A stretch of 23,416 bases of DNA from contig JAJFBK010000008.1 of the NCBI GenBank assembly GCA_020696955.1, positions 1 to 23,416 on the forward strand, given 5' to 3'. Under the pieces are notes generated by a model that saw only the letters and a program-made list of their open reading frames with translations, was not told the origin of the DNA and did not search any database. This document shows positions 1,834 through 21,081 of this stretch, piece after piece. A program made the position numbers and the translations under genes. The DNA is from Patescibacteria group bacterium. Its GTDB lineage: Bacteria; Patescibacteria; UBA1384; CAILIB01. Numbering within the stretch: position 1 is the stretch's first letter; the number at the start of each line of letters is the position of its first letter.

Positions 1834-2166
1834 ATGTTCGTTACGACAATTGAGCGCCTTGGTCTCACTGAAAAAGAATCAAAGCTTTACCTTACGAGTT
1901 TACGAGTAGGTCCTGCCAGCATGCAGGTTTTGGCTCGCAAAGCCGGTATTGATCGTGGTACCGCTTATCACGTGGCCCAGACGCTGGGAGAAAAAGGATT
2001 GTTTGACATGGTGCAGGAGGGGAAGCGTCCACTATTTCGAGCCACTCATCCTCAGAAACTTTACCAGTACGTTGAGCAGAAAAAGAAGGAAGCCGAACAG
2101 CACTATCAGGCTATGGAGAGCATGATAGGTGATCTCGAGGCTTTGTATGAAGTAGGAATGGCCTAA
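1834..2166 (+). CDS. TrmB-family HTH transcriptional regulator, short form
   Basis: This 110-residue protein opens with the TrmB winged-helix signature (LGLTEKESKLYL, then AGIDRGTAYHVAQTLGEKGL and a wing ending in PLFRATHP). A charged helix (YQYVEQKKKEAEQHYQAM) follows and is probably a dimerising coiled coil. Classic TrmB proteins are about 250 residues or longer with a sugar-binding C-terminal half. That half is absent here without sign of damage, so this is a short DNA-binding form rather than a sugar sensor. It is the first gene of the rsmA-recG operon and 55 nt upstream of rsmA. The promoter in front has an inverted repeat across its -35 box, so autoregulation is plausible. The target and ligand are unknown. 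Confidence 0.8.
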   Translation: MFVTTIERLGLTEKESKLYLTSLRVGPASMQVLARKAGIDRGTAYHVAQTLGEKGLFDMVQEGKRPLFRATHPQKLYQYVEQKKKEAEQHYQAMESMIGDLEALYEVGMA

Positions 2167-2221
2167 AGGCCGGGTGTTGCCCCTGTTAAAAAAGGGAAAT
2201 TTCAGGTAAGGTGGTGACATT

Positions 2222-3055
2222 ATGGATTTGCTGCGTAAAGAAGAGGTACTACAACGATTGCAAGAGGAGGGTGTCTGGTCAAAGAAGAGTCTTGGCCAGC
2301 ACTTTTTGGTGGATGAAAAAGCCCTGGAAACCATCCTTGAAGCAGCCGCCCTGGATGATACTGACACCGTGGTGGAAATCGGCCCCGGAATGGGCGTTCT
2401 GAGCAGCCGACTTTTGGAGAAGGTGGAGAGAGTGGTTGCCTTTGAGTTTGACCCTGACATGAGAAGAATCCTCGAGAAGGATTTTCCTGAGCTGGAAGTA
2501 GTAGCGGGCGACGTTCTTAAAACCGCTCCCCAAGTTATTCCTGATCTTGGACCGTATAAGGTCGTGGCTAACATTCCTTATCAGATCACTACCCCTCTAA
2601 TGAGGTTGTTTCTGGAAGGGGGAATACCTAATCCACCCCTTAGCATGACCTTACTTGTCCAAAAAGAGGTGGGAAAACGGTTTGCAGCAGGGGCAAAGAT
2701 GTCGGATAGGGGATATCTTTCAGTTCTTATCGAGTACTTTTCAGATATTTCATACGTGATGACGGTTCCTGCTAGCTCATTTTTCCCACCACCAAAGGTT
2801 GATTCTGCGGTAATACACTTGAAGATGAAGCCTGAGCGGCTGTTTCCGCAGCAAGAGGAGCGAGAGTTCCTGAAGTTTGTTCATCGGTTCTTTATTACCC
2901 CTCGCAAGCAGCTCAAAAACGTAGTGGCCGGGATTCGTGGCCTTACTTCGGCCGAAGTTGAAGAAGCCTTTGCAAAAATTGGCCTGCCATTTACGGCTCG
3001 TGCCCAAGAACTCACGCTTTTGGAGTGGAAGGCGCTTGATGAAAGTAGCTTGTAA
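2222..3055 (+). CDS. rsmA: 16S rRNA (adenine1518/1519-N6)-dimethyltransferase RsmA/KsgA
   Basis: RsmA uses S-adenosylmethionine to dimethylate two adjacent adenines in the helix-45 loop of 16S rRNA late in 30S assembly. The 277 residues show the family marks in order: KKSLGQHFL (21-29), the SAM-binding EIGPGMGVLS (52-61), an acidic residue after strand 2 (FEFDPD, 74-79), GDVLK (96-100), the catalytic N-I-P-Y (117-120; N-L-P-Y in most members) and FFPPPKVDSAV (187-197). The C-terminal helical domain is present and the length is normal. The ATG follows AAGGTGGTGA at 5 nt, a near-consensus Shine-Dalgarno that fixes the start. rsmI begins 3 nt after the stop, so two 30S methyltransferases are translated together. 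Confidence 0.96.
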   Translation: MDLLRKEEVLQRLQEEGVWSKKSLGQHFLVDEKALETILEAAALDDTDTVVEIGPGMGVLSSRLLEKVERVVAFEFDPDMRRILEKDFPELEVVAGDVLKTAPQVIPDLGPYKVVANIPYQITTPLMRLFLEGGIPNPPLSMTLLVQKEVGKRFAAGAKMSDRGYLSVLIEYFSDISYVMTVPASSFFPPPKVDSAVIHLKMKPERLFPQQEEREFLKFVHRFFITPRKQLKNVVAGIRGLTSAEVEEAFAKIGLPFTARAQELTLLEWKALDESSL

Positions 3056-3058
3056 TAT

Positions 3059-3769
3059 ATGAATGACCTTAAACCATCGACACTCTATATAATAGCTACG
3101 CCGATCGGAAACATGGAAGACATGACCGCTCGAGGTATGAGGGCGTTAGCTGAATGCGACGTGCTCTATGCCGAAGATACTCGGGTTACTAGGAAGCTTC
3201 TTGATCGGTATGAAATCAAGAAATCCCTCTTTTCTTATAGGGAGTCTGCCGGTCCCGGACTTGTGCAAAAGACTATCTCAGAGATCATTTTTCATCTGAA
3301 AGAAGGAAAATCCGTTGGGTATGTGAGTGATGCAGGAACCCCTGGGATCTCTGACCCAGGAAGCTATTTGGTGAGCAAGGTGAGGGAGGAAGGCTTTGAA
3401 GTTTTGCCGATTCCAGGGGTCAGTGCCTTGGCAACATTACTTTCAGCCACCGGCTTTCCTTCGCAACGTCCGCTCTTTGTGGGATTCTTACCAAAGAAAA
3501 AAGGTCATCAGACGCTTATGGGAAAGTTAGAGTCAGCTCTGGATTCAGGGGTTTGTGATACCATTGTCTTGTATGAATCACCTGAACGAATTATTAAATT
3601 ACTCGAGGAATTAAAGACCTGGAAGGCTTCTCTCAGAGTATGCGTAGGAAGAGAGCTTACGAAATTACATGAAGAATTGTTAGTAGGTACGACCGACGAG
3701 GTATATGAAAAATTACGAGCCAAGACATCGATCAAGGGAGAAATAAGCCTAGCCATTTGTAAGGAATAG
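3059..3769 (+). CDS. rsmI: 16S rRNA (cytidine1402-2'-O)-methyltransferase RsmI
   Basis: RsmI adds a 2'-O-methyl group to C1402 in the 30S decoding centre. The 236-residue protein has the tetrapyrrole-methylase-type SAM fold with the RsmI signatures ATPIGNMEDMT (13-23), YAEDTR (37-42), SDAGTPGISDPG (90-101), PIPGVSA (117-123), YESPERI and RELTKLHEE. It is shorter than E. coli RsmI (about 286 residues), because the C-terminal extension is missing; this truncation is common. No Shine-Dalgarno is seen, so translation probably depends on coupling to rsmA, 3 nt upstream. metG starts 2 nt after the stop. Confidence 0.95.
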   Translation: MNDLKPSTLYIIATPIGNMEDMTARGMRALAECDVLYAEDTRVTRKLLDRYEIKKSLFSYRESAGPGLVQKTISEIIFHLKEGKSVGYVSDAGTPGISDPGSYLVSKVREEGFEVLPIPGVSALATLLSATGFPSQRPLFVGFLPKKKGHQTLMGKLESALDSGVCDTIVLYESPERIIKLLEELKTWKASLRVCVGRELTKLHEELLVGTTDEVYEKLRAKTSIKGEISLAICKE

Positions 3770-3771
3770 CC

Positions 3772-5319
3772 ATGAAACCTTTTTACATTACTACTGCAAT
3801 TGCCTATCCAAATGCCAAACCCCACATTGGTCATGCTTTGGAAATGGTGCAGGCTGACTTTTTGGCTCGGTACTATCGACTAGCCGGAAGAGAGGTATAT
3901 TTTTTGACAGGTCTCGATGTGCACGGCTTGAAGATTCAGCGTACAGCCGAGAAGGCAGATCTGTCCCCTTCTGATTTCGTTAATAAGATGAGTCCAGTCT
4001 TCACTGACATGGCAGCCAAGCTCGGGCTGACCCACGACCGCTTCATCAGGACTGACGATGAGGATCACATAAGGACTGCCCAGGCATTATGGAACCGCTC
4101 TTTGGCGAATGGCGACATTTACAAGAAGAACTACCGAGCCTGGTACAACGTAAAGGAAGAAGAGTTTTTGGGGCTGGTTGATGACATTCCTGATTCGTCG
4201 GTCTTTGAGGTTGATCCTCAGTTTATTGAAATGATTGATGAGGAGAATTATTTCTTTGCCCTTTCCAAATATTCGGACCAGGTGGCTGACTTGCTTCGAT
4301 CCCAGGAGTATAAGGTAAGTCCGAAGAGCCGTTTAAATGAGCTTATAAACTTCATTGAAGCAAAAGGTCTGCAGGACGTTTCAATTTCACGAGAAAAAAG
4401 TAAGCTTGGATGGGGCGTGCCAGTGCCAAACGATCCTGACCAGGTAATGTATGTATGGTTTGATGCTCTTACTAACTATCTAACTCCTGTATGCACCGTA
4501 ACTGAAGAAGGTGACCTGGTTCCAGGTGAATTATGGCCAGCTGACATTCATTGTGTCGGGAAGGATATTAACCGCTTCCACAGTTTGCTGTGGACTGGAA
4601 TGCTGCTTTCGGCAAAGCTGCCAGTGCCTAAGGAGTTGCTGGTACATGGGTTCATTACTTCTGGAGGGCAGAAGATGAGCAAGAGTATCGGAAACGTCGT
4701 GGACCCCATGGAAGTGATTGAGTCTTACGGTACCGATCCTGCCCGCTGGTTTCTTTTGAAAGAAGTGCCGACAACCGGAGATGCTGACTATACTGATGAA
4801 CGAATGAATCAGGTTTATACTGCCGATTTGGCCAATGACCTCGGTAATTTGGTAAGTCGAGTTTGGAGCATGTGTCAGAAGTACACTGAAGGAAAAGTAC
4901 CTTCAGGTTCTGGGGATCTCAATAAGGAAGAAATGTCGGTCGTATCAGATGCCTGGTCAAAGTATCACGCCTCAATAGAAAAACGGGAGATTCATTCTGG
5001 ATTGGCTGCTGCCCATTCCTTGCTCGTTTTTTGCAACAAACGAATTGATGAAAGGAAGCCATGGGTACTTGCTAAGGATCCGGCTGCTCGGCAAGAACTG
5101 GAGTCCTTGTTATATGGACTGCTCGAAGTGATCAGAATGGCGGTCATTATGATCTCACCTGCTCTTCCTTCTGCTTCCGTAAAAATCTTTGAGACCGTAT
5201 TTCCTTCTCTTCTCAGTGAGATCGGCTTTGAGCTTGGTTCGAAATGGGGCTTGCTGGAACCCGGAACAGATTTGGGTACAGGTCCGGGAGTGCTCTTCCC
5301 AAAGAAGGAGCAGGCATGA
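3772..5319 (+). CDS. metG: Methionyl-tRNA synthetase
   Basis: This class I aminoacyl-tRNA synthetase charges tRNA-Met with methionine using ATP. The 515 residues contain the HIGH motif (18-21, in AYPNAKPHIGHA), the Rossmann signature through VYFLTGLDVHG, the WFDAL segment, and KMSKS (301-305) followed by IGNVVDP. The helical anticodon-binding domain follows (TADLANDLGNLVSR). No Cys-x-x-Cys pairs are visible in the connective region, so it is the zinc-free form, and no C-terminal tRNA-binding OB domain is fused. The usual T-D-E-H-G is L-D-V-H-G here, keeping the Asp and His. AAGGA 6 nt before the ATG supports the start. The stop overlaps tatD by four bases (ATGA). Confidence 0.96.
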   Translation: MKPFYITTAIAYPNAKPHIGHALEMVQADFLARYYRLAGREVYFLTGLDVHGLKIQRTAEKADLSPSDFVNKMSPVFTDMAAKLGLTHDRFIRTDDEDHIRTAQALWNRSLANGDIYKKNYRAWYNVKEEEFLGLVDDIPDSSVFEVDPQFIEMIDEENYFFALSKYSDQVADLLRSQEYKVSPKSRLNELINFIEAKGLQDVSISREKSKLGWGVPVPNDPDQVMYVWFDALTNYLTPVCTVTEEGDLVPGELWPADIHCVGKDINRFHSLLWTGMLLSAKLPVPKELLVHGFITSGGQKMSKSIGNVVDPMEVIESYGTDPARWFLLKEVPTTGDADYTDERMNQVYTADLANDLGNLVSRVWSMCQKYTEGKVPSGSGDLNKEEMSVVSDAWSKYHASIEKREIHSGLAAAHSLLVFCNKRIDERKPWVLAKDPAARQELESLLYGLLEVIRMAVIMISPALPSASVKIFETVFPSLLSEIGFELGSKWGLLEPGTDLGTGPGVLFPKKEQA

Positions 5320-16536: not shown

Positions 16537-16614
16537 AAAAAGAAAGTTAGTGGCTACCAAAGCCAAAAATTATATTGCTCAGCAGTAGAGCCGGTGTTCA
16601 GCCAAAGAGTCGCA

Positions 16615-16623
16615 TGCTATACT
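16615..16623 (+). promoter_or_regulatory. Extended -10 promoter of ftsE
   Basis: TGC-TATACT is an extended -10 element; the only -35 candidate is a poor TGTTCA at 16595-16600. The hexamer ends 6 nt before the ATG at 16630, so transcription is predicted to begin on the A of the start codon. Confidence 0.6.
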
Positions 16624-16629
16624 TTCACT

Positions 16630-17526
16630 ATGTCTGATCAAGCCAACAACGAAACACAGAGCCCGGTTACCTATTCTGAGCCCAGTACTGCTGCTAAACC
16701 TGAAAAGGTGGCCACCACTCCAAAGGAGGCGGAGGCTGCAAAAAGTGTTGAAGCAACTGGACAAACAGCTGAAAAATCCCGTCGACCGCTGTACGGAAGG
16801 GCAAAGCCTCAGGCCAAGCTTATCGATACCGTACCTTCTCGTCCTGTTCTCGTAGAGTATCGAGACGTGGTAAAGAGCTACGAGGATCATCTGGTGCTTG
16901 ATCATATTTCTCTCAAATTATACAAAGGTGAGTTCTTGAGTGTAGTAGGCCCTTCCGGCGCCGGAAAGTCTACTCTTATCAAATGTCTTGCCTTGCAAGA
17001 ACGGCCAGAAGAAGGCCGAATTATCGTGGCCGGGCGTGACATTACCATGCTTCGTGACCGTGAATTGCCATATTACCGACGTAAGGTGGGAATTGTTTTC
17101 CAGGACTTCAAGCTTCTTACCAGCAAAACGGTTTATGAAAACGTGGCCTTCGCCCTTGAAGTTGCCAGTACTCCTTCTAAGGAGATTAAGGAACGGGTTC
17201 GCATCATGCTGGAAACCGTCGGCATGTCCTCCAAGGCCGAGAACTTTCCTCACGAGCTTTCAGGTGGTGAGCAACAACGTGTGGCCATTGCTCGGGCTTT
17301 GGTTCATGATCCGAAGATTCTGATTGCCGACGAGCCTACTGGAAACCTTGACCCTGTGAATACCTGGGAAATTATCGAGCTTCTTTTCAAGATCAACAAG
17401 TCCGGAACCATGGTGGTTTTGGCCACTCACGACCGTGAAATCGTTGATGCCTTGAAGAAAAGGGTAATTACCATGAGGGCCGGCCAAATCGTTTCTGACC
17501 AAGAAAAAGGAACCTATCTTGTTTAA
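16630..17526 (+). CDS. ftsE: Cell-division ABC transporter ATPase FtsE with an N-terminal extension
   Basis: FtsE is the cytoplasmic ATPase that, with FtsX, drives activation of cell-wall hydrolases at the septum. The start is ATG 16630 (298 residues), directly after a -10 box. The ABC motifs are complete: Walker A GPSGAGKST (107-115), Q loop VFQDFKLL, signature LSGGEQQR (210-217), Walker B ILIADEPTGNLD with E235, and switch H267 (ATHD). FtsE is usually about 220-230 residues. Here about 70 extra residues precede the ATPase core (MSDQANNETQSPVTYSEP, then Ala/Glu/Lys/Pro-rich to SRRPLYGRAKP), predicted to be disordered. ftsX follows at once. The extension could bind FtsZ or another divisome protein; that is speculation. 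Confidence 0.94.
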   Translation: MSDQANNETQSPVTYSEPSTAAKPEKVATTPKEAEAAKSVEATGQTAEKSRRPLYGRAKPQAKLIDTVPSRPVLVEYRDVVKSYEDHLVLDHISLKLYKGEFLSVVGPSGAGKSTLIKCLALQERPEEGRIIVAGRDITMLRDRELPYYRRKVGIVFQDFKLLTSKTVYENVAFALEVASTPSKEIKERVRIMLETVGMSSKAENFPHELSGGEQQRVAIARALVHDPKILIADEPTGNLDPVNTWEIIELLFKINKSGTMVVLATHDREIVDALKKRVITMRAGQIVSDQEKGTYLV

Positions 17527-17527
17527 T

Positions 17528-18478
17528 ATGAATAGCGTATTTCGCATCTTTAGTTACGGCATCCAAGGTTTCCGACGTAATATTTGGCTTTCGGTTATCG
17601 CCATCATTACCATGACCCTGACCATTACCACGATCACGGTATTTTCACTTGCCAATATCGTGGCTTCGAAAAAATATCAGGAGTTCAATGAAAAAATCGA
17701 TTACAACATTTTCTTGCGGGACGCTGCCAGTGAGGCTGACGTTACCAACTTCAAGGACCAGGTCTCTTCACGTCCAGAAGTTGAAAATAGTATTTATCTG
17801 AACAAAGACCAGGTGCGGGAACGGTTCAACGGTTTCTTCGGACAGGTGGATGCTCTTAAGGGAATTATTACTGACGAAAACAATCCGCTTCCTCGTGAGA
17901 TTGACGTAAAATTCAAAGATCCAGGGCAAATCGATCTGTTTGATGAATTTGTACGGCAGGAACGGTTCGGTTCACTGATCGAGAAGACCAGCTACCAGGA
18001 CAACAAGAACCTTATCTCCACCTACTTACGGCTTACCAATTTCCTAAAGGTATTCGGTATCTCCTTTACGGTTTTCTTCTTGCTCATCGCCATCCTGGTA
18101 ATTCTTAATACCATCAGGCTGGCCATCTATTCCCGTCGTGAAGAAATTGAAATCATGCGTCTGGTTGGTGCCACCCGTGGCTTTATCCGGGGGCCTTTCC
18201 TGGTGGAAGGCGTACTGTTCGGACTGATTGGAGCGCTTATCTCCGGACTTTTGGCTTGGGCGTTCTTGCTCCAGCTGAAAAGCCTGCTTGAAAGTAGTTT
18301 CAGCACCCAGTCGGCTAACTTCATTACCGACCTGTTTGGAGGCAGTCTTGGCGGCATCACGAATGCCAGTGGATTCAATACCTTGTTCGCTCAGCTGTTT
18401 GCCATTCAAATTGCAATAGGATTGGCTCTAGGAGTCGCTTGTAGCTTTATCGCAATTCGCCGTTACTTGAAAGAGTAA
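17528..18478 (+). CDS. ftsX: Cell-division permease-like protein FtsX
   Basis: FtsX is the membrane partner of FtsE and passes ATP-driven movement to an extracellular murein-hydrolase activator. The 316 residues show the expected layout: a short cytoplasmic start (FRIFSYGIQGFRRNIWL), TM1 at about 20-42, an extracellular loop of about 130 residues (SRPEVENSIYLNKDQVRERF and on), then three further TM segments beginning near VFGISFTVFFLLIAILVI. Between TM2 and TM3 lies the cytoplasmic YSRREEIEIMRLVGATRGFIRGPF, the typical FtsX contact with FtsE. The ATG at 17528 is 1 nt after the ftsE stop. A TTG at 17519 with AAGGA 7 nt upstream is a real alternative (319 residues). The next gene's -35 box lies in its last codons. 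Confidence 0.94.
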   Translation: MNSVFRIFSYGIQGFRRNIWLSVIAIITMTLTITTITVFSLANIVASKKYQEFNEKIDYNIFLRDAASEADVTNFKDQVSSRPEVENSIYLNKDQVRERFNGFFGQVDALKGIITDENNPLPREIDVKFKDPGQIDLFDEFVRQERFGSLIEKTSYQDNKNLISTYLRLTNFLKVFGISFTVFFLLIAILVILNTIRLAIYSRREEIEIMRLVGATRGFIRGPFLVEGVLFGLIGALISGLLAWAFLLQLKSLLESSFSTQSANFITDLFGGSLGGITNASGFNTLFAQLFAIQIAIGLALGVACSFIAIRRYLKE

Positions 18479-18505: not shown

Positions 18506-19705
18506 ATGCAGATTCATTCTGAAGTTTCTTCATCACCTGTCCTCCGATACTGCGCAACTCTCTTTACTGTATTAGCTGTTTTTTCAGCTTGTTCGTTCTC
18601 TTCCTATGGAATGGGAACCGTTGAGCGTGTCCAAGCGGCCACGGTTGACCAACTTAATCGCGAAAAAGCCGAGCTTGAAGCCAGGCAGAAAGCTGCCCAG
18701 CAGCAAGCCCAGGCTCAAAAAAGCGTGGCTCAGCGAGCAGCTGAAAAAGTACAGGAAGTAAGTTCTCAGATCAACCAGATCCAGGGCAGTATCACGTCGA
18801 CCACTCAGAATATGGCCCAAACACAGGCTCAGATTGCTCAAAAGAATCAGGAAGTTGCTGAGCTTGAAGGAAAGCTTCGAAGTTATAAGGACACCCAGGA
18901 TCTCTTGGTCCGCAACATTTACATGCTCCGTATGAGCATGCCTGACCAGCTCATGCTCTTTTCTGACCAGCCGATCAGCAAACGTGAACAGGATCAGGCC
19001 CAATTCGAGGCCATGAAGAAGTCATTAGCCAGCATCTATGAAAAGACAAACTCAGCCAAGCTGGCAGTTGAAGGAACCAGGGCTGATCTGGTTAGGCACA
19101 GCGAAGAGCTCCAGTCACAGAAGATCCAGCAAGAAGAGCAGCGCTTGGGGTTAGCCAGCGTCAAGCAGGATCAGGCAAGGCTTCAGGAAAATGCCGAAGA
19201 AGCAGTGGTCGCCTTGGAGCAGCGTGCTCAGCAGGCAAGGATTGAGCTGGCTAAGAAGGAACAGCAGATCTCGGCTGCCCTTACCGCCGCTATCAATGCT
19301 AACAGAGGAGGAATCAGTTCCAATGCGGCTCAGGGGAAACGAGTTCGTCGGGGTGAAATTGTGGGGCACCTGGGAAGCACGGGTAACTCGACTGGACCTC
19401 ACGTTCACTTCGAGGTTCGTGTAAACAATAGCCCCGTAAATCCTCGGCCTTATGTCAGCAACGGAACCCTCAGCTGGCCGGTAAGCAACTATGTTATTTC
19501 ACAGGAATTTGGCGTAAGAGGTGCTACTAGTTACTATGACGCTCATACCGGAATGGACTTGGCCGGACCATACGGCCAGCCAGTAAGGGCTCCGGCGGAC
19601 GGCACGGTTATCCTTAACCAGTACTATGGAGGTTATGGATATGCTTGGGCACAACAGCTAGACAACGGTCTCGTAGTCCTTCTCGGACACATGACCGGAA
19701 AGTAA
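18506..19705 (+). CDS. Secreted coiled-coil protein with M23 (LytM) motifs in circularly permuted order
   Basis: This 399-residue exported protein is probably the FtsEX-controlled murein hydrolase or activator, like EnvC, PcsB or RipC. A hydrophobic signal runs from about 15 to 45 (cleavage likely near VQAA), then a long Gln/Ala/Glu-rich coiled coil at about 46-265. In a normal M23 domain HTGxD comes first, then the A-H of YAHL, then GPHxHFE. Here RRGEIVGHLGSTGNSTGPHV and HFEV (281-304, with H299 and H301) come first, followed by NPRPYV. Next are WPV...ISQEFG, HTGMD (H347, D351), GTV and VVLLGHMTGK (H395), where the protein ends. All expected zinc ligands and catalytic His are present, but the domain halves are swapped. 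A terminator follows, so it is not cut short. Whether it is an enzyme or an activator is unknown. Confidence 0.88.
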   Translation: MQIHSEVSSSPVLRYCATLFTVLAVFSACSFSSYGMGTVERVQAATVDQLNREKAELEARQKAAQQQAQAQKSVAQRAAEKVQEVSSQINQIQGSITSTTQNMAQTQAQIAQKNQEVAELEGKLRSYKDTQDLLVRNIYMLRMSMPDQLMLFSDQPISKREQDQAQFEAMKKSLASIYEKTNSAKLAVEGTRADLVRHSEELQSQKIQQEEQRLGLASVKQDQARLQENAEEAVVALEQRAQQARIELAKKEQQISAALTAAINANRGGISSNAAQGKRVRRGEIVGHLGSTGNSTGPHVHFEVRVNNSPVNPRPYVSNGTLSWPVSNYVISQEFGVRGATSYYDAHTGMDLAGPYGQPVRAPADGTVILNQYYGGYGYAWAQQLDNGLVVLLGHMTGK

Positions 19706-19710
19706 AAAGT

Positions 19711-19739
19711 ACCGCAGGCAATTGGAGCCTGCGGTTTTT
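19711..19739 (+). terminator. Rho-independent terminator after the M23 gene
   Basis: A 9-bp perfect stem (ACCGCAGGC with GCCTGCGGT), a 7-nt loop and five Ts. It confirms that the M23 gene ends at 19705. Confidence 0.9.
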
Positions 19740-19815: not shown

Positions 19816-21081
19816 ATGTCTATTTCACAACGAAACTCAACTTTTGGTCGGCGTGTTCTCCTCTTGGCTTTGGTGTGCCTGATGGTGCTTGGCAGCCTTG
19901 CACTTGGCTTTTATGTTGGTAGGTATAACCAGGTTATCACTTCTTCCATACCTAGCTACATCACCAGCCCTTTCGGAGCCAACAACGATCATAAAAAAAC
20001 CGATCTCAGTCTCTTTTGGCAGGCCTGGAATGCCATTGACCAAAAATATTACGGCCAAATCGATGACGCAAAGCGTATCGACGGTGCTATTGCAGGGATG
20101 GTTGCCAGTCTTGAAGATCCTTACACCGTTTACATGGAGCCAAGCGCCAGCGAGAGCTTCCTTTCAGATTTGGAAGGTGAGTTCAGTGGTATCGGAGCCG
20201 AGCTCAATGTGAAGGACGGCCAGTTGGTAATCGTGGCGGCTTTAGAAGGGACTCCGGCTGAAAAGGCAGGCCTGAAAGGGCAGGATGTCATTCTGGAAGT
20301 GGACGGTAAGAAAACCTCTGAGATGAGCTTCGATGACGCCATCAGTAGCATTCGAGGACCAAAGGGCACCGAAGTCGAACTGACCATTGCCCGTCAGGGG
20401 GCTGAGTCAAGCCTTAAGGTCAAAATTTCCCGTGACACCATTATCGTCAAGAGCGTAAAAAGCAGTGTCATTGGTCAGAATGAATCGATCTCTTATATCA
20501 AGGTGAACCAATTCGGAGAAGATACAGCCCAATTATTGCAGGATGCCCTTGCCGATGCGGTAAGTTCTGGAAAGAAAGGGGCGATTTTGGACTTGAGAAA
20601 CAATCCCGGTGGATATCTAGATACTGCCATTCAGGCAATTGGCATGGTCTTGCCTAAGAATCCTCAAAGTGAGAATGCCGTACTACGAAACCGCACTGCC
20701 GTCATCGAACGCTTCAAGGATGGAAGCGAGCAGTCCCATAAGTCACAAAACGATCCAGTGGCAGCTTCTCTGCCCATTGCGGTATTGGTGAATGGGGGAA
20801 GTGCTTCTGCCTCAGAGATCTTCGCTGGTGCCATGAAGGACTACGGACGGGCAAAGGTCATAGGAACCAAAACTTTTGGAAAAGGAAGCGTTCAGGAATT
20901 GCAGAAACTCAACAATGAAGGAAGCGTAAAGGTGACGATTGCCAAATGGTTTACGCCGGCCGGTACCGGTATTGACGGAATTGGGGTTGAGCCAGACGTA
21001 GTAGTGGAAGTTCCGGCAGAAACAGAGCTGGGCACTACGGATCCTCAGGCTCAGAAAGCCCTGGAATTGCTTCAACAATAG
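19816..21081 (+). CDS. S41 family C-terminal processing protease (CtpA/Prc type)
   Basis: This 421-residue serine protease acts outside the membrane and trims or degrades exported proteins from their C-terminus; several homologues regulate murein hydrolases. Residues about 12-34 are an N-terminal anchor (LLLALVCLMVLGSLALGFYV). An N-terminal helical part (WNAIDQKYYGQI) leads to a PDZ domain (GIGAELNVKDG, PAEKAGLKGQDVILEVDG, SIRGPKGTEVELTIAR). The catalytic domain holds DLRNNPGG, VNGGSASASEI with Ser331 as probable nucleophile, and FGKGSVQ with K356 and Q360, the spacing of the Ser-Lys-Gln triad of CtpB. The protein is complete. It starts 6 nt after a -10 box and has no Shine-Dalgarno. Its position beside the M23 protein makes that protein a candidate substrate, by inference only. 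Confidence 0.94.
   Translation: MSISQRNSTFGRRVLLLALVCLMVLGSLALGFYVGRYNQVITSSIPSYITSPFGANNDHKKTDLSLFWQAWNAIDQKYYGQIDDAKRIDGAIAGMVASLEDPYTVYMEPSASESFLSDLEGEFSGIGAELNVKDGQLVIVAALEGTPAEKAGLKGQDVILEVDGKKTSEMSFDDAISSIRGPKGTEVELTIARQGAESSLKVKISRDTIIVKSVKSSVIGQNESISYIKVNQFGEDTAQLLQDALADAVSSGKKGAILDLRNNPGGYLDTAIQAIGMVLPKNPQSENAVLRNRTAVIERFKDGSEQSHKSQNDPVAASLPIAVLVNGGSASASEIFAGAMKDYGRAKVIGTKTFGKGSVQELQKLNNEGSVKVTIAKWFTPAGTGIDGIGVEPDVVVEVPAETELGTTDPQAQKALELLQQ

Follow-up and report, generated by a model that had tools for sequence, protein, structure and literature searches.

EnvC, a partner of the cell-division complex FtsEX, is described as an amidase activator and not as a hydrolase; its coiled-coil hairpin is gripped by the X-lobe of FtsX, and a restraining-arm helix (residues 222-278) lies in the LytM groove and stays there until FtsEX moves (PMC7668044). 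PcsB and RipC combine a coil with a catalytic C-terminal domain that is itself held and released by FtsEX (PMC11627006). Here we describe a protein encoded directly downstream of ftsE and ftsX in a 23,416-nucleotide stretch of DNA (the window; contig JAJFBK010000008.1, assembly GCA_020696955.1) from a Patescibacteria group bacterium. PcsB carries a CHAP domain and RipC an NlpC/P60 domain, whereas this protein carries an M23/LytM domain in which the two halves occur in swapped order. CwlO, like PcsB and RipC, joins a coil to a catalytic C-terminal domain on which FtsEX acts directly. The protein resembles EnvC in its antiparallel coil, its C-terminal LytM-type domain and its FtsEX partner, but EnvC has the canonical order of halves, while the window protein has the swapped order and retains the active-site residues. 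Canonical M23/LytM peptidases (LytM, lysostaphin and StM23) likewise differ from it in the order of halves.

Catalytic domains are seldom circularly permuted in nature. A precedent in a wall-hydrolase superfamily is provided by permuted NlpC/P60-like enzymes (YaeF/G6R, LRAT-like), which have an unrelated papain-like cysteine fold; circularly permuted papain-like domains are described in two reports (PMC6403190; PMC10318531). FtsEX-linked coiled-coil hydrolases are known, and for the well-studied M23/LytM fold no permuted form was found in the open-licence PMC literature.

Circular permutation of the M23/LytM domain

The M23/LytM domain of the window protein is a true circular permutation. Motifs in the 399-residue protein run in the order G277-K278-RVRRGEIVG, GSTGNSTGPHVHFEV and NP, followed by WPV, HTGMD, GTV and LLGHMTGK. 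When the native protein was compared with Pfam PF01551, the match fell into two stretches (79.6 bits, cut-off 28.7). Each half alone also exceeded the cut-off, profile positions 2-53 scoring 39.4 bits and positions 57-96 scoring 49.6 bits. With the halves rejoined in canonical order, a single stretch over positions 2-96 was obtained at 91.2 bits, as expected from the original prediction that joining the protein's end to GKRVRRGE would rebuild a normal domain. The GKRV motif does stand at this junction, although its predicted numbering as residue 278 is off by one (G277-K278). The swapped order itself was found in 136 aligned rows (134 distinct), far beyond chance, and the cut lies where it had been placed, after the catalytic His and before GxxVxxGxxIG. 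Profile score and active-site motifs agree with M23 membership and the order of halves is not canonical; because profile positions 57-96 precede 2-53, the domain is a permuted variant and not a plain M23 member. All five residues expected of the active site (H299, H301, H347, D351 and H395) are present, and we take the HxxxD and HxH motifs and the catalytic His formed by them to have zinc-binding and catalytic roles in M23. The linker between the two halves is about 10 residues long.

An AlphaFold model of the permuted domain formed one confident unit (predicted local distance difference test, pLDDT, 90.8; predicted template modelling score, pTM, 0.85), the outcome anticipated for halves that meet in a single fold. 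The domain alignment supplied for the fold prediction omitted two relatives, P0020 (short) and P0025 (aberrant C terminus). A stretch within residues 315-399 matches M23 chains structurally; neither Foldseek nor VIA-align, run without permutation-aware superposition, placed the two halves together on a single LytM chain. The full-length model had a pTM of 0.51 and does not fix the orientation of the domain relative to the coil. In the window protein the coil helix ends at about residue 267 and a short linker follows, with a mean model confidence of 64 over residues 261-270.

EnvC was the best chain when the permuted-family profile was compared with the PDB (whole chain, E = 7.9e-33). Profile A3 aligned the coil to residues 33-261 of E. 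coli EnvC at 77.2 bits, of which the composition bias was 41.5. The top Foldseek match for the window model, and the sole match at E ≤ 0.001, was the V. cholerae FtsEX-EnvC chain 8tzl_E (E = 4.7e-6). EnvC was absent from the 50 rows returned by VIA-align for the whole model, which held generic coiled coils, helical bundles and the RipA N domain. The permuted profile matched 42 PDB sequences, and in none of them did the best stretch span the whole profile. The window protein has the FtsEX-linked, EnvC-like coil of an EnvC-type protein, subject to that composition bias, and lacks the degenerate active site; it has three features of a PcsB- or RipC-like protein, namely a gene beside ftsEX, a coil and an intact catalytic domain.

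Conservation in Patescibacteria and linkage to FtsEX

Permuted M23 forms a conserved family in Patescibacteria, a group of ultrasmall bacteria, and is not peculiar to one genome. The swapped order was recognized, by motif and by reading, in P0001-P0042 of 120 listed proteins, and a 41-row alignment of permuted proteins (A1) and a permuted-domain profile (A2) were prepared. A2 was searched against 379 genomes of the phylum assigned to a Gottesmanbacteria genome (Patescibacteria group at NCBI, and presumably the GTDB phylum Patescibacteria). Some match at E ≤ 1e-8 was found in 312 of the 379 genomes. Full-span matches, defined as starting at or before model position 10 and ending at or after 127, numbered at least 75 in at least 73 genomes by hand count, and at E ≤ 1e-20 at least 62 in at least 60. 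The other listed matches were partial, and the longer of these (G082, model 3-103; G366, 6-101; G283, 3-101; G066, 4-80) were left out of the count. All 75 full-span matches were confirmed as permuted open frames and, together with L001 (Saccharibacteria) and L049 (Patescibacteria), make up 77 loci. The original prediction had allowed that the arrangement might prove common and already described in the candidate phyla radiation (CPR). It is common in Patescibacteria; no description of a permuted M23/LytM domain was found when the open-licence PMC literature was searched for this form or for FtsEX partners in CPR, a scope that excludes bioRxiv and most subscription journals.

No full-span A2 match at E ≤ 1e-20 was found in 992 genomes of four other phyla, although a rare or divergent case could be missed, since scoring was limited to the top 14-29 candidates in many of the genomes and this threshold would also exclude 13 of the 75 confirmed permuted matches. 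The control phyla were those of a Chloroflexi (301 genomes), a Paenibacillus (299), a Nocardioides (246) and a Nostoc (146) genome. Genomes with matches numbered 0/301, 0/246 and 0/146, and 14/299 in Bacillota, where the matches begin at model positions 31-48 and are therefore half matches. An earlier scan of genome contigs had given 80 loci dominated by canonical M23; among these a motif scan flagged only L001 and L002 as permuted and L003 as tandem, L049 being identified later. One relative with a doubtful 'Verrucomicrobiae bacterium' source label (P0019) has a domain sequence identical to that of L117, in the Patescibacteria set.

To describe conservation, 292 sequences were pooled and 287 were classed, 136 as permuted and 151 as canonical; P0025 failed the coverage rule. 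The permuted rows comprise the 77 loci, 58 database (P) rows and the window, which is counted twice, as itself and as P0001. All five active-site residues are kept in 129 of the 136 rows, the exceptions being Pro at H347 in six rows and Asp at H301 in one. This indicates functional constraint, and the earlier view of a functional permutation rather than decay is upheld. The chain ends 2-6 residues past the catalytic His in 132 rows, 7 past in one and 12-21 past in three. Insertions pile up instead after window residue 313, at the junction of the old termini, where they reach 39 residues and affect 53 of the 136 rows. Such a fixed cut, with a free junction between the old ends, is expected of a circular permutation.

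The original prediction of an FtsEX-linked coiled-coil protein also held. In the window, the permuted-M23 gene lies on the same strand as ftsE and ftsX, 27 bases separating the ftsX stop from its ATG. A profile built from the permuted loci, with the window FtsX as start, was applied to the 72 of 77 permuted loci that have at least 900 bases upstream. FtsX was found within 1 kb upstream on the same strand in 63 of them and FtsE in 62. A first pass with a narrow overlap window gave FtsX in 47/59; it was found in 13/13 of L181-L193, and in 62/72 when overlaps above 250 bases were disallowed. The distance from FtsX to its partner is mostly -30 to +10 bases, measured on stop-to-stop frames.

Canonical coiled-coil M23 paralogues of CPR were considered as FtsEX partners and rejected, with FtsX within 1 kb upstream in only 1 of 24 open reading frames sampled. 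In that one case (L207, - strand, 1905-3074 and 3059-4324), two canonical coiled-coil M23 genes stand in tandem behind ftsEX. The sample comprised 21 frames from 20 loci chosen by strong N-half matches, and three (L122, 2006-3241; L123, 3928-5163; L127, 4336-5619) that lie directly behind a permuted gene on the same strand and were scored as having no FtsX directly upstream.

In a converse survey of 40 Patescibacteria genomes chosen for having no listed permuted match, FtsX was present in 39, and the downstream gene was read at 30 loci. It encoded a canonical M23 domain in 8 (for example L224 and L231), a divergent, tentatively permuted M23 domain in 3, CHAP in 3 (L216, L222, L223), a C39-like domain in 3, and something else or nothing in 13. 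The canonical cases include L207 again, and the L219, L220 and L225 loci end before the second half is complete; some of the 13 are truncated where the contig or locus stops. In Patescibacteria, the coiled-coil proteins encoded next to FtsX carry interchangeable C-terminal wall-hydrolase domains, and permutation and FtsEX linkage are associated but not equivalent. The C39-like domains, which look unusual for an FtsEX partner, were called above the Pfam cut-off in L240, below it in L221, and by likeness to L240 in L241. The three divergent domains (L238:221-1522, L243:186-1502 and L244:201-1532, all on the - strand) score 19.6-30.1 bits, and in them HxH is kept while the HxxxD spacing is apparently absent. 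Judging by these motifs, they are possibly inactive, EnvC-like permuted versions.

The origin of the permutation was examined in a 93-row tree, for which the columns (127) were set in canonical order. For this, 115 permuted and 79 canonical rows at 80% identity were reduced to 53 and 49 at 62%, of which 48 and 45 were used. The free tree needs two permuted/canonical label changes, and the best tree with permuted rows kept together had a log-likelihood 10 above the free tree (approximately unbiased test, p-AU = 0.616). These tests allow one origin without proving it, and the aligned sequences are compatible with a single origin of permuted M23. Circular permutations usually arise when a domain is duplicated in tandem and the outer halves are then lost, and this is the likely origin of permuted M23. 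A 570-residue Ruminiclostridium open frame (L003) carries a tandem pair of M23 domains, an intermediate of the sort required by duplication-based permutation.

Proposed function and alternative explanations

The window protein is probably a secreted, FtsEX-coupled peptidoglycan endopeptidase with a circularly permuted M23/LytM domain, acting as a direct hydrolase in the manner of PcsB or RipC. The extracellular domain of FtsX would grip the coiled-coil hairpin, as in EnvC, and the ATP cycle of FtsE would move the coil. This movement may free or reposition the M23 domain, which would itself cut septal cross-links, with no activation of an amidase as occurs with EnvC. A direct hydrolase is favoured by the retained active site together with the scarcity of AmiA/B/C-type amidases, PF01520 being found in just 7 of 40 genomes examined out of the 75 with permuted M23, whereas the same search detected it in 8 of 14 controls (PF01520 was the one amidase family sought). 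The count covers the genomes of relatives, the window's own not being among them.

Alignment with EnvC covers the coil and extends into the first part of the arm, beyond which a flexible linker leads into the domain at the strand that follows the catalytic His and not at the old N terminus. With this tether, the catalytic face would be expected to take a different orientation towards the coil. A more specific idea, tentative and on balance unlikely, is that one ancient permutation in Patescibacteria shifted the tether of the FtsEX-driven LytM enzyme to this strand from the domain's former N terminus. Such a move would have produced a geometry of gating distinct from those of the EnvC restraining arm and of PcsB and RipC, the enzyme itself being the division hydrolase in cells mostly without AmiA/B/C-type amidases. 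Alternatively, the permutation may be real but neutral, an old accident of duplication and truncation after which fold, groove and gating by FtsEX stayed as in PcsB/RipC-type hydrolases, and we consider the chances of this evenly balanced. Neutrality is compatible with a direct hydrolase and competes only with a new mode of gating. Motif mapping speaks for it. The M23 groove is bordered by loops 1 (b1-b2), 2 (b4-b5), 3 (b9-b10) and 4 (b10-b11) (PMC8269130). The cut maps to the interval from loop 2 to loop 3 and spares all four loops, so that, against the original prediction that the active site could be left open, the cut itself need not open the groove. The canonical M23 or CHAP domains on FtsX-adjacent coils of other Patescibacteria point the same way, indicating that the order is not required. 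That order and cut point are kept across very divergent rows weighs against neutrality, though a single origin and the difficulty of reverting would explain this equally well.

It is improbable that the protein is an EnvC-like adaptor activating a separate amidase, since its five active-site residues are so widely kept and PF01520 is infrequent in the genomes examined. The coil is nevertheless EnvC-like, and while sources name relatives plainly 'peptidoglycan DD-metalloendopeptidase' or 'EnvC', one gives 'septal ring factor EnvC'. A domain-swapped dimer, in which the halves complement each other between two molecules, would be helped by the short flexible tether and by the longer inter-half linker of the 53 rows with insertions. 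The confident single-chain model and the shortness of the window linker make such an exchange more improbable still. An assembly rearrangement or a decaying gene can be dismissed with near certainty, because independent genomes, contributing the 77 loci and the 58 database rows (P0001 being the window's own), have the same order. The reading frame of the window gene is also intact, with a terminator-like site just past its stop.

The permuted family, of which the window protein is a putative direct hydrolase, belongs to the FtsEX node of cell division, in a bacterial group that is large and for the most part uncultured. FtsX partners with canonical M23, permuted M23 or CHAP domains amount to a natural experiment, in which the part of gating that is governed by the point of tethering could be identified.

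Features of the locus and neighbouring genes

Table 1. Coordinates of the ftsE-ftsX-partner locus in the window
Feature	Position	Strand	Basis or remark
FtsE, cell-division ATPase of FtsEX	16594..17526	+	NCBIfam TIGR02673, 273.2 bits (cut-off 264.85); Pfam ABC_tran
FtsX, permease-like partner with extracellular domain	17519..18478	+	Pfam PF02687 and PF18075 (FtsX_ECD), both above cut-off
Coiled-coil protein with circularly permuted M23/LytM domain, 399 aa	18506..19705	+	
Probable Sec signal peptide, residues 1-45, ending ..VQAA	18506..18640	+	Read by eye from the sequence; model helix 11-27
Antiparallel coiled-coil hairpin, EnvC-like, residues 47-267	18644..19306	+	AlphaFold helices 47-144 and 157-267
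M23 C-terminal half, placed first, residues 274-313, with H299 and H301	19325..19444	+	PF01551 profile 57-96
Linker from old C terminus to old N terminus	19445..19474	+	Position where insertions in the family concentrate (up to 39 aa)
M23 N-terminal half, placed last, residues 324-399, with H347, D351 and H395	19475..19702	+	PF01551 profile 2-53 over residues 346-397
Probable intrinsic terminator, 9-pair stem followed by a T run	19711..19739	+	Starts five bases past the stop codon; consensus match only

The best NCBIfam score for the window FtsX was obtained with FtsX_Gpos, at 191 bits and below the cut-off of 225. Terminator-like sites numbered 7 in the 3.6 kb scanned, compared with 3.8 ± 2.2 expected in shuffles. 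Downstream of the permuted-M23 gene, a CtpB-like S41 peptidase with a PDZ domain is encoded at 19816-21081 of the window, and an S41/PDZ peptidase neighbour recurs in several permuted loci, for example L001, L118, L121, L125, L151 and L172.
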